A stretch of DNA of 64,000 nt from assembly GCF_013402815.2 (NCBI RefSeq), contig NZ_CP058601.1:992001-1056000 (forward strand). The letters are read 5' to 3'. This document shows, piece after piece, positions 24,815-64,000 of the stretch (positions are counted from its first letter, which is position 1; each line of letters starts with the position of its first letter). Under the pieces are notes generated by a model. That model saw only the letters and a program-made list of their open reading frames with translations, made no database searches and was not told the origin of the DNA. The position numbers were made by a program, and so were the translations under genes. The stretch is from Natrinema halophilum (lineage in GTDB: Archaea; Halobacteriota; Halobacteria; Halobacteriales; Natrialbaceae).

Positions 24815-25867
24815 TCAGTATCCCCGCTCAATCAGGTAATCTGCAATCTGACAGAGAAGGTCGCGAGCCTCGTTGTCCGGAAGGACCTCGAGTCTGTCTT
24901 TCCCTTGCTCGACTAAGTCGCGGGCGGTTTCGTTGGAGTAGGCGATCGAACCGGCGGCCTCGAGTTCGGCGACCGCGTCGTCTATCTCGGACTCGGTGAC
25001 CGCGTCGACGTCGTCGGTATCGACCAGAGTGTTGACGTCGACTCCTTGTCGACGGGCGTGGACGGTGATCAACGTCTGTTTGTTCTCGACGAGGTCGCTC
25101 CCTCGTTGTTTACCGAGTTGCTCGCTGGGTACCGTCAGGTCGAGAACGTCGTCCTGTATTTGAAACGCGCGACCGATGTCGAGGCCGTAGCCATATAAGG
25201 CGTCGATCGTGTCGTCGTCAGCCCCCAGCAAGATTGCGGGGAGACACGCAGAAGCGGCGTACAGGACGGCCGTCTTCTGTTCGATCATCTCGAGGTATTC
25301 CTCGGGCGAGACGTCGGCGCGTTCCTCGAAGGTGACGTCGAGGGATTGGCCTTCGCATATCTTCGTACAGGTCGTCGCGAGGACGTCGAATGCCTCGACG
25401 ATACGATCCGATTGGGCCTCCGTCTCGAGCATGATCTCGAAGGCTTTTGAGTAAAGAGTGTCGCCAGCCAAAATAGCCGTCTCGAGGTCGTATGCCTCGT
25501 GTACGGCGGGTACTCCCCGCCGAAGGTCGTCGTCATCCATGATGTCGTCATGAATCAGCGTGAACGACTGAATAACTTCGACGCTGACGGCTGCTGCCAT
25601 CACGTCGACAGGGTCCTCTTCGTGAAGCGACGGGAACGACCGATACTCTGTTGAGAGTGGGTCGACATCACCCAGAGCCTCCGCCGTCGTCAACAGGACG
25701 GCTGGCCGTAACCGTTTGCCGCCCGCATCGAGCAGATATCGGGAGGCCTCATAGAGCCGTTCGGGTCGCTGGATCGGTAACTCTTCAGGGATCGCTTCGT
25801 TGACCTGCTCACGACGGTGCCGTACCGCCTCGAGCACCGCTTCTTCGCGTGCCTCTGGGCTCGTCAT
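24815..25867 (-). CDS. idsA: Geranylgeranyl/farnesyl diphosphate synthase (polyprenyl synthetase)
   Basis: This 350-aa trans-prenyltransferase makes the C15-C20 prenyl diphosphates used for archaeal lipids. The first Asp-rich motif is DDIMDDDDLRRG (near 112), with the second at DDVLD (near 239, FQIQDDVLDL). Also present are GGKRLRP and the KTAVLYAASA segment. Length and layout match bifunctional archaeal IdsA enzymes, though chain length cannot be read with certainty. It follows rnj by 1 nt, the standard haloarchaeal arrangement. Confidence 0.93.
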   Translation of the reverse strand: MTSPEAREEAVLEAVRHRREQVNEAIPEELPIQRPERLYEASRYLLDAGGKRLRPAVLLTTAEALGDVDPLSTEYRSFPSLHEEDPVDVMAAAVSVEVIQSFTLIHDDIMDDDDLRRGVPAVHEAYDLETAILAGDTLYSKAFEIMLETEAQSDRIVEAFDVLATTCTKICEGQSLDVTFEERADVSPEEYLEMIEQKTAVLYAASACLPAILLGADDDTIDALYGYGLDIGRAFQIQDDVLDLTVPSEQLGKQRGSDLVENKQTLITVHARRQGVDVNTLVDTDDVDAVTESEIDDAVAELEAAGSIAYSNETARDLVEQGKDRLEVLPDNEARDLLCQIADYLIERGY

Positions 25868-60681: not shown

Positions 60682-61713
60682 CTACCCTGTCAACGAGTCC
60701 TCATGCTCGGGCTGGTCCACTCGGTTCGGGCTATCGACCGATTCGTTCGTGAGCGACTCGAGAACCATTCCCCGGACGGGGTCCCAGTTCTCTGCCTCCC
60801 AGTCGGTGACGAGCAGGGTTCCGTCGCTCGTCTTGACGACGAATTGCTGGCTCGCCTGGAAGACCTGAACCACCGTTCCCGGTCGCTCGTCGAGCAGCAG
60901 ATCCGAGGAGAACGGCTGGGCGTTCCAGATCGTTATGCGTGTTCCATCGTGTTCGGTGAACGCGCCCGGATATGGATGTGCGACGGCCCGAACGAGGTTG
61001 TAGATCGTCTTCGTCGGGTCTTCCCAGTGGATAGCGCCATCCTCCGGGTTCCGCTTCGGATAATAGGTCGGCTCAGCCGTCTGAACCTCGAGCTCGGCGG
61101 TTCCAGCTAATACGTCGACGAGGATTTCCTCGAACAGTTGCTGGCCGGTCATCACGAGCTTGTGATACAACGACTGGATCGTGTCGTGGCGGTTGATGTC
61201 GAACTTTTTCGTGGCGACCACGTCACCCGAATCAGCCCCTTCGTCTAAATGCATTACCGAGAGGAGGAACCGATCGAGGTCTTCGATGAGCGACCAGTTC
61301 ATCGGCGACCGCCCCCTCCCCTTCGGCAAGCCAAAGGCCGACCCGTGGAGGCCAAGTGCTCCGCGTGTGAACGTCTCGAGAACATCACCAGGGATGAGTC
61401 GTTGCCAGCCGTGGACGAGCAATAAATCGGCATCGAGGGTGACGAAGTGGTCGACGTCTCTGTCGTCCATTCCGTAGGTTTCGGGATAGTAGATCGAAAC
61501 GTCGTGGTCCGCGGCGTACTCGGCGTGATCGTAGTAGCTACAGACGCCGTATCGCTCGCCCTGTTCGGGCGTCAGCGAAACGAGTTCGTCTACTTCGACC
61601 AGCTCCTCGTGAACGTACCGAAAAAGGTCGAACCCGGCATCTGTACAGCTGGCAAACACTATTTGCGGATCGCGAACCGGTTCGTCGTCAGTTGCGAGTT
61701 GATCGTGGGTCAT
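60682..61713 (-). CDS. Formyltransferase-fold protein (Fmt/ArnA-like), variant active site
   Basis: This 343-aa protein has an N-terminal formyltransferase domain and a C-terminal OB-like region ([36 protein letters not shown], a typical Fmt/ArnA-type stretch). H123 in [20 protein letters not shown] and D161 in EGADSGDV match two of the three conserved N10-formyl-THF transferase residues. The usual Asn two residues before the His is Gly121, so catalysis may differ. Sugar N-formyltransferases and methionyl-tRNA formyltransferases share this fold. The neighbours suggest a glycan role, but this is inference. It follows the deacetylase-like gene by 47 nt. Confidence 0.75.
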
Positions 61714-61760
61714 GTGGAGATCGTCGGATCGTAAATCGGCTGTCGTCTAGCTCGGTCGTT

Positions 61761-62540
61761 TTACGAGCGGCTTACGTTGTCGTCGATGAACTGGTGATTG
61801 AGGAATCCACTGAGCGACCGAAACCGATTATCGCGTTCGCGATACAGTCGCTCGGCGAACGACTGGTCGGATTCGGCCCACAGCCCTGGGTGGACCAGAA
61901 TCTGCAGCCGGTCGGGAAACCCATCGGCAAACGGAGGCGAACCACGCCACCGCTGGTTCGAGTCACCCCGGTACGCGATGGAAGTGAAGAACCGTTCCTC
62001 GTACGTACTCACGAACCCCTCGTAGCTCCGTTTCAGCACCCAATCCGGCGGGATGTGAAACGAGACGGCGTCGATCGGTTCCTCGATTGCCATCGAGAGT
62101 ATGTTGCGTTCCTTGTCGACTGCCGCGACGAGATCCTCGTTTGTGGGTTCCGACGACCAATACTGGTGCGGGCTAAAGTGCAGGCCGATGTCGTGACCCA
62201 GCGAGGTGATCCGATCGATGGCGTTTCGCGTTTCCTGACATAATGTGTTATAAAACGGCGACGAGAGCAGGAAGAAGTACGTAGCGGTGACGTCGTTGTC
62301 GGACTCGAGTTGCGCCATCTTCGTCGCCCGCTTCGGTGACCAGTCTACGTCGTGTCGCAAAAGGATCTCGCCATCGTCGATGGGGCCACCGTACGACGTG
62401 AACTCGTATCCACGCGACCGTAACTGAACGAGGAGTTCCTCGTACGTATCGTACGTAAACTGGATCGAGTTCGGGCAGTCATTCCCTCCGTTTTCGAGGT
62501 CATCCGTTGCGTTTTGTGATAACGACCCAACCATACCCAC
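61761..62540 (-). CDS. Polysaccharide-deacetylase-like (NodB-fold) protein
   Basis: This 259-aa protein carries the NodB-type RHDVDWS (residues 62-68) and GHDIGLHFSPH (115-125) motifs. These supply metal-site Asp and His residues in carbohydrate esterase 4 proteins. The start could be M1 at 62540 or M3 at 62534. It shows no signal peptide, so the enzyme is probably cytoplasmic and may act on a nucleotide-linked or lipid-linked sugar. It is followed closely by the formyltransferase gene and preceded by a 294-bp gap (62541-62834) with nothing recognised. Confidence 0.75.
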   Translation of the reverse strand: MGMVGSLSQNATDDLENGGNDCPNSIQFTYDTYEELLVQLRSRGYEFTSYGGPIDDGEILLRHDVDWSPKRATKMAQLESDNDVTATYFFLLSSPFYNTLCQETRNAIDRITSLGHDIGLHFSPHQYWSSEPTNEDLVAAVDKERNILSMAIEEPIDAVSFHIPPDWVLKRSYEGFVSTYEERFFTSIAYRGDSNQRWRGSPPFADGFPDRLQILVHPGLWAESDQSFAERLYRERDNRFRSLSGFLNHQFIDDNVSRS

Positions 62541-62834: not shown

Positions 62835-63830
62835 TCACTTGAGACCCTCGCTCGAGATGTGATAATCCAGTATTTGTTCGAACCCCTCGAGATATGCCCC
62901 TATATCGACACTCTGAATCTCGGATTCGAACTGCATCGCTCGTTCGTACTCGCCACGCCAACACTTCAGGAAGTGCTCGACGACGTTTGAGTGACGAATC
63001 GACTCGACGACGGAGCGAATCGGCGCCTCGGTCGGATTCTCCCTGATCAGTTGTATCGTCTCGTGAGAAACGATGTCGTTTTCCATCGCGTAGACGACGA
63101 CGCCGGAACTACAATCGCCCTCGGCTAGTTCTCGCTTCCAGGTCGAAATCCAGTTTCCAATGCGGGCCATCCGTTGGGTCCGGTCGCAGACCTGCCGGAG
63201 AACCGATAACTCACTCGAGTCGAACGTCGGGGCGTTCGAGAGGTCGATGTCGGCGTAGACGAAAATGAGCATGTTGTAAACGTCGTACCGCCATAGTTCG
63301 CGTTCAGAGACGAGACCGGGGTACGCGTTCGCGAGATACGAGTATTTGATCGCCTGAAAGACTTCCTGAAGGTCGAACTGAAGCAACTCCCTGAACTCTT
63401 TCGATCGAGGTCCGCTATCGTACAGCGTCGAGAACCGCTCCCAGACATCCGTTAAAAATCGAACGACGTCGCCGTCGACGTCGTCGCGGTCTGGATTCGC
63501 GCGCCGGTGGTCGAACGGAATCGCAGTCAGTTCGTCGAACGTCGCTCGGTCGGCGTGTTGTTCGGCGACGTCGTCAGCAACGACTGCGAATATCGTCGCA
63601 ACCAGTTTTGCGTCGCGAACGGGGCGGGTACGCTCCTCGTGGACGCAGGAAAGTCTAACCGTCGGAAAGAGGTGATAGAGCCATTGCCAGAGGAAACGAT
63701 CCCTGTCACCGGCAATATCGTCGTACGAATCAATCAATGGCAGGACTGTCTCGGGGAGATTTTGTTGTCGAACGGCAGCAAGTGGCCTTTCACCAGTACT
63801 GTGAGTGGAAACTTCAAACTCGTTTCGCAT
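62835..63830 (-). CDS. Class I terpene synthase-like protein (divergent, 331 aa)
   Basis: This all-helical protein has the spaced signature of class I terpene cyclases. An Asp-rich ADDVAE (D86, D87, E90; DDxxE type) lies near residue 86. An NSE/DTE-like NWISTWKRE (N226, T230, E234; D2 position is Trp) lies ~140 residues later, followed by the usual LAEGD tail, with a basic residue patch upstream. Length (331 aa) matches bacterial terpene synthases. Class I enzymes ionise a prenyl diphosphate with Mg2+; IdsA in this window could supply substrate. The start at 63830 is chosen over 63878: an AT-rich TATA stretch lies ~34 nt upstream, and the first 16 residues of the longer frame are not family-like. 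I infer the function only from motif spacing; a structural relative without activity remains possible. Confidence 0.6.
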   Translation of the reverse strand: MRNEFEVSTHSTGERPLAAVRQQNLPETVLPLIDSYDDIAGDRDRFLWQWLYHLFPTVRLSCVHEERTRPVRDAKLVATIFAVVADDVAEQHADRATFDELTAIPFDHRRANPDRDDVDGDVVRFLTDVWERFSTLYDSGPRSKEFRELLQFDLQEVFQAIKYSYLANAYPGLVSERELWRYDVYNMLIFVYADIDLSNAPTFDSSELSVLRQVCDRTQRMARIGNWISTWKRELAEGDCSSGVVVYAMENDIVSHETIQLIRENPTEAPIRSVVESIRHSNVVEHFLKCWRGEYERAMQFESEIQSVDIGAYLEGFEQILDYHISSEGLK

Positions 63831-63897
63831 TACACTGAAGCTGAAATTCAGGATTAATAAATTTATACATTCGCACACAAATTACTGGAGGCAATTT

Positions 63898-64000
63898 ATG
63901 ACGATTGTCTCTCGAATCGCGACGACACCGGAGAGTAACACACGCCTATCGTGCTGGCACCAAAGAAACACCCAATTCTATCGTGCTGGCACCGGAAAGG
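63898..64000 (+). CDS. Possible 5' end of a gene, truncated by the window edge
   Basis: The ATG at 63898 follows GGAGGCAATTT, a Shine-Dalgarno-like sequence, and the frame stays open to the edge (MTIVSRIATTPESNTRLSCWHQRNTQFYRAG...). It is divergent from the terpene-synthase-like gene and shares an AT-rich region with it. Part of it is a direct repeat whose 32-nt period does not keep frame. It is too short to identify. Confidence 0.3.
   Translation, partial: MTIVSRIATTPESNTRLSCWHQRNTQFYRAGTGK
63946..63993. repeat. 16-bp direct repeat with 32-nt period at the window edge
   Basis: CTATCGTGCTGGCACC occurs at 63946-63961 and again at 63978-63993. Only two units are visible, with a 16-nt spacer, and the window ends just after. 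The spacing and short size do not fit known haloarchaeal CRISPR repeats. It could be the edge of a mobile element or a longer tandem array continuing to the right. Confidence 0.5.

Follow-up and report, generated by a model that had tools for sequence, protein, structure and literature searches.

Terpene synthases make scents and many natural drugs, and isoprenoid lipids and carotenoids are what haloarchaea depend on. The window, a 64,000-nucleotide stretch of the Natrinema halophilum genome (4.84 Mb, three contigs), carries near one end a reverse-strand gene that probably encodes an active class I terpene synthase, predicted to be a stand-alone, Mg2+-dependent enzyme. Terpenoid biosynthesis in archaea is reportedly the subject of a bioRxiv preprint by Samusevich et al. 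(10.1101/2024.01.29.577750). Archaeal terpene synthases characterised in yeast are mentioned in two papers that cite this preprint (PMC12797696, PMC13235557), and a direct literature search on archaeal terpene synthases by name returned nothing. In the accessible part of a further report, antiSMASH 'terpene clusters' in Halomicroarcula are given without enzyme identity. Since archaeal terpene synthases have reportedly been described by Samusevich et al., archaeal terpene synthesis is not new in itself; what may be new here is the description of a whole family, its missing sensor and RY elements and its linkage to regulators.

Identification of a terpene-synthase-like gene

The features of the locus, in window coordinates, are as follows.

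62835-63830, reverse strand: gene starting with ATG, for a 331-aa protein resembling class I terpene synthases (Pfam, AlphaFold2, conservation)
63129-63155, reverse strand: codons of N226-W-I-S-T230-W-K-R233-E234, the NSE/DTE triad with Trp at the D2 position, in predicted helix 205-236
63162-63164, reverse strand: codon of invariant R223, possible diphosphate ligand (family conservation)
63195-63197, reverse strand: codon of invariant R212, possible diphosphate ligand (family conservation)
63561-63575, reverse strand: codons of the aspartate-rich Mg2+ motif, D86-D87-V-A-E90, with which predicted helix 65-90 ends
63853-63867, reverse strand: TATA-like box TATAAATTTATTAAT, recognised by sequence, its centre some 27-30 bp before the ATG
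63951-64000, forward strand: first part of an MBL-fold hydrolase gene, divergently oriented, that runs past the window, a conserved neighbour in Natrialbaceae

Re-translation agreed with the first-pass annotation in giving a 331-aa protein with ADDVAE at residues 85-90 and NWISTWKRE at 226-234, followed by LAEGD. The spacing that it had put at about 140 residues is exactly 140 from D86 to N226, which matches the usual DDxxD-to-NSE distance, the two motifs of bacterial enzymes lying at about positions 90 and 230 (PMC5082573). Pfam assigned the protein to PF19086 (Terpene_syn_C_2) with 33.2 bits, the cut-off being 23.7 (E 5.7e-8), while an NCBIfam search gave nothing convincing and the PF03936 profile found no match in the N. 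halophilum genome. An alternative GTG start lies 48 bp upstream of the ATG at 63830; the TATA-like box, however, is centred such that a leaderless haloarchaeal transcript would begin at the ATG rather than at the GTG. The closest named relative, from Natrinema gelatinilyticum, is 78% identical, and comparison of the N. halophilum gene with five relatives gave dN/dS values of 0.14-0.27, indicating purifying selection.

Structural comparison with class I enzymes

PDB sequence searches found no significant match to any solved terpene synthase, so structure comparison was needed. The AlphaFold2 model, built with 59 relatives in the alignment, is all helical (mean pLDDT 92.9, pTM 0.90). Foldseek returned 29 matches at E ≤ 0.001, all terpene synthases or prenyl-diphosphate-synthase-type enzymes, with the diterpene synthase VenA (7y9g) at the top (E 1.4e-4). 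In VIA-align the best 50 rows were terpene cyclases throughout, with Z scores of 19.8-21.6 over about 280 superposed residues, above the range that the tool flags for unrelated helical bundles; bornyl diphosphate synthase (1n20) gave Z 21.6 (282 residues, 3.4 Å), LrdC (6oh8) 20.8 and selinadiene synthase (4okm) 20.3. The fold check that the first-pass annotation had proposed thus came out in its favour, the predicted structure containing the alpha-domain helical bundle of terpenoid synthases.

Profile comparison led to the same motifs. Aligned by hhalign with 13 terpene synthases of Streptomyces clavuligerus, a 24-member family profile gave E 2.1e-4 over 265 columns and placed DDVAE on DDHFD and NWISTWKRE on NDVLSLEKE, bearing out the identification of both as class I cyclase motifs in register with the DDxxD and NDxxSxxxE of these enzymes. 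This register, together with the superposition over about 280 residues, implies that the two motifs probably line a single active-site cavity. Among solved chains the wider family profile picked out Sat1646 alone, a class I pimarane-type diterpene synthase (7e4n/7e4o), in which NDLASYERD stands in register with NWxxTWxRE and whose structure superposes with VIA Z 21.0. Its sequence match, although the best in the PDB, is not significant (E 0.21), and it has Asp at the D2 position where the haloarchaeal family has Trp.

Human GGPP synthase and other elongases were also among the Foldseek matches, as would be expected if the protein were a chain-elongating trans-prenyl diphosphate synthase or a relative of squalene/phytoene synthases, and the class I fold is common to it and the trans-prenyl diphosphate synthases (PF00348, including the IdsA-like gene in the window). 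These enzymes carry two DDxxD motifs, however, whereas the FARM and SARM pair is absent from the N. halophilum protein, which has one aspartate-rich motif and NWxxTWxRE as its second. Given also that the best VIA-align rows are all cyclases, that the Pfam family is a terpene synthase rather than polyprenyl_synt or SQS_PSY and that separate genes of both kinds are present in the same genome, we regard an elongase as extremely improbable.

Conserved predicted metal ligands and departures from bacterial enzymes

Class I enzymes are defined by two metal motifs, and typically three basic residues also bind the diphosphate (PMC10563020). Conservation was counted over 97 related sequences using N. 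halophilum numbering. In the aspartate-rich motif, residue 86 is Asp in 93 members and Asn in 4, D87 is invariant, and residue 90 is Glu in 86 and Asp in 11; in the NSE/DTE triad N226 and E234 are invariant and residue 230 is Thr in 93 and Ser in 4. The predicted metal ligands are kept also in putative Methanomicrobia and other distant members. Ten further residues (R43, W48, W50, D196, R212, R223, W227, W231, R233 and D239) are the same in all 97 sequences, K75 is nearly invariant, and the family signature reads RxGNWxxTWxREx2EGD. The Trp at D2 that had been remarked on in the first-pass annotation is therefore present but is no defect of one copy, W227 being invariant. In one sub-branch the first Asp is replaced by Asn, NDLSD standing in place of DDxxE/D (loci L105, 5956-6936; L106, 5998-6972; L109, 5998-6966); L105 and L109 have a neighbour cluster in common with L110, the L105 copy of which is a cobalamin adenosyltransferase.

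Compared with bacterial PF19086 class I enzymes (the S. clavuligerus set, 4okm, T-muurolol synthase 9hqm and VenA), the haloarchaeal proteins have in common the alpha-helical fold, the length and the pair DDxxE/D and NxxxS/TxxxE about 140 residues apart. They differ in the invariant Trp after both the Asn and the Thr of the triad, in their own signature and in lacking two elements that bacterial class I enzymes usually have. The pyrophosphate-sensor Arg described 46 residues before the NSE motif (PMC5082573) is found in 16 of the 97 family members versus 11 of the 13 S. clavuligerus enzymes; the N. halophilum protein has an Arg at -45 (R181) instead, a position that is not conserved in the family. 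Similarly, an RY pair 70-95 residues after the triad is found in 10/97 and 11/13, respectively, and was looked for and absent in the C-terminus of the N. halophilum protein. By fold and metal ligands the family is class I, but its accessory residues for diphosphate binding set it apart from the bacterial group. A point against activity is that altered motifs can leave Streptomyces homologues weak or inactive (PMC10509563).

In the mechanism that we propose, D86, D87 and E90 together with N226, T230 and E234 would hold three Mg2+ ions that bind the prenyl diphosphate group, and R43, R212, R223, R233 and K75 would bind the diphosphate in place of the sensor Arg and RY pair. Loss of diphosphate would then generate a carbocation within a hydrophobic cavity, from which a terpene hydrocarbon or alcohol would be released. 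The candidate substrates are FPP (C15), GGPP (C20) and GFPP (C25). The fold and ligand set rest on comparison, and from these we infer ionisation, substrate and product.

The same motifs and fold would suffice for a lyase or hydrolase of prenyl diphosphates that does not cyclise them. Such an enzyme would follow a variant of the class I mechanism with a different product: GGPP or FPP would be ionised and the cation quenched by water or by proton loss to give a linear terpene alcohol or polyene. With the sensor Arg and RY pair missing, the active site could be looser and template the product less. The invariant aromatic residues W48, W50, W227 and W231, however, suggest a shaped cavity, as judged from sequence, and we consider a non-cyclising enzyme rather unlikely.

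Possible substrate supply in N. halophilum

The N. halophilum genome gave four matches to polyprenyl synthases and has two squalene/phytoene synthases, so that substrates exist for a terpene synthase. One of the four lies in the window at about 25040-25762 and matches 'IdsA', in keeping with the first-pass annotation, which had named IdsA as the supplier. The fourth match is weak (26.8 bits) and falls in a 403-aa frame near a contig end (G000:C1:4357834-4358322, L241), which may be a diverged prenyl synthase relative. The terpene synthase is proposed to stand alone, drawing on the general prenyl pool of the genome and not on a dedicated cluster.

Occurrence among haloarchaea

The N. halophilum protein passes the gathering cut-off of the bacterial-type PF19086 profile but many relatives score below it; at E ≤ 0.1 the profile matched 19 of 24 diverse family members. 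PF19086 alone found 18 of the 393 genomes of the phylum and thus badly undercounts the family, a profile of which gave matches in 121 of 391 Halobacteria genomes and 39 of 86 genera, mostly in single copy. Wherever annotation was seen, relatives, including plasmid-borne ones, are labelled 'hypothetical protein'. That few archaeal examples were known to the first-pass annotation therefore reflects missing annotation, the family being common in haloarchaea. At one locus (L078, 5944-8329; genome G263) the gene is present in two tandem copies.

Outside Halobacteria but within the phylum, the family was found in a single genus of one class, putatively Methanomicrobia (6 of 149 genomes). Further members came from a deep-sea archaeal MAG and from MAGs labelled Methanohalobium, Lysobacteraceae and Anaerolineae, the binning of which is uncertain. 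No relative was found in the viral contigs searched. In the tree the 77 haloarchaeal rows formed one group (SH-aLRT 99), within which most genera hold together, although duplicates and splits also occur. We drew no account of horizontal transfer from the members in bacterial MAGs (L202, L214), which are possibly mis-binned contigs.

The presence of a conserved terpene synthase family, kept by purifying selection, in about a third of haloarchaeal species suggests that part of their chemistry has gone unrecognised. In the literature search no haloarchaeon turned up with a cyclic terpene assigned to it, nor did any identified product of this family. The family can be tested directly in cultivable genera, would serve as a test of how class I ionisation proceeds when sensor Arg and RY pair are missing, and would give salt-stable enzymes.

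Regulators and other neighbours of the gene

Neighbours were surveyed using codon-scored genes. Among 58 loci outside Natrialbaceae, five regulator clusters (Bat/HTH_10, histidine kinase, HalOD1, FilR1-type and DUF7344) occupied the -1 position in 41% and the +1 position in 21%, falling to 16% at -2, 10% at +2 and 0-4% at positions 4-6. By Pfam, BAT and HTH_10 occurred in 15 and PAS_9 in 23 of 116 immediate neighbours; BAT and HTH_10 were not among the 25 commonest families in 104 genes four positions away. Bat-like genes surround the terpene synthase gene in three different arrangements, a variety that speaks against simple descent of a single block, although the loci are related and the counts carry no phylogenetic correction. 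In several loci the next gene downstream encodes a FilR1-type regulator and either overlaps the terpene synthase gene or lies no more than about 45 bp from it, and with FilR1/HVO_A0261-type winged-helix genes at 2 bp spacing or overlap (L004, 10980-11741; L063, 5117-6001; L005, 10813-11736) the terpene synthase gene likely forms a two-gene operon.

This proximity to regulators, together with the unconserved sensor Arg and RY pair, would suit a diverged non-catalytic relative, which the first-pass annotation had left as its alternative. Such a protein might bind prenyl diphosphates and serve as a sensor partnered with the neighbouring regulators. That all members keep the metal ligands or replace them conservatively weakens this alternative, since a pure binder need not keep all of them, including Glu or Asp at 90 and Thr or Ser at 230. 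The N. halophilum copy, moreover, has no regulator beside it at its own locus. We therefore consider a non-catalytic sensor improbable and favour an active terpene synthase. More tentatively, and less likely than not, haloarchaea might possess their own ancient class I branch that ionises its substrate although sensor Arg and RY pair are missing. The terpenoid it makes might be a signal or a stress metabolite, its production linked to Bat-type PAS/GAF sensors and other such regulators and controlled by light, oxygen or redox state.

We also weighed a biosynthetic gene cluster and discarded it, since no tailoring enzyme adjoining the gene is conserved across the surveyed loci. In Natrialbaceae the gene has a mostly fixed chromosomal place, with an MBL-fold hydrolase diverging upstream and rpl21e/rpoF downstream. 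The hydrolase (PF00753, weak ODP; L001, 9951-10685) belongs to a cluster with members at 23 loci, where it is arranged in more than one way, and is a possible functional partner of the terpene synthase gene. A cystathionine gamma-synthase, also downstream in Natrialbaceae, is missing at the N. halophilum locus. Between the terpene synthase gene and rpoF/rpl21e lie, at 60682-62540 on the reverse strand, genes for a formyltransferase (ArnA/Fmt-like) and a weakly polysaccharide-deacetylase-like protein; the pair recurs behind metB in one other Natrinema and looks like a sugar N-formylation pair unrelated to the terpene synthase gene.
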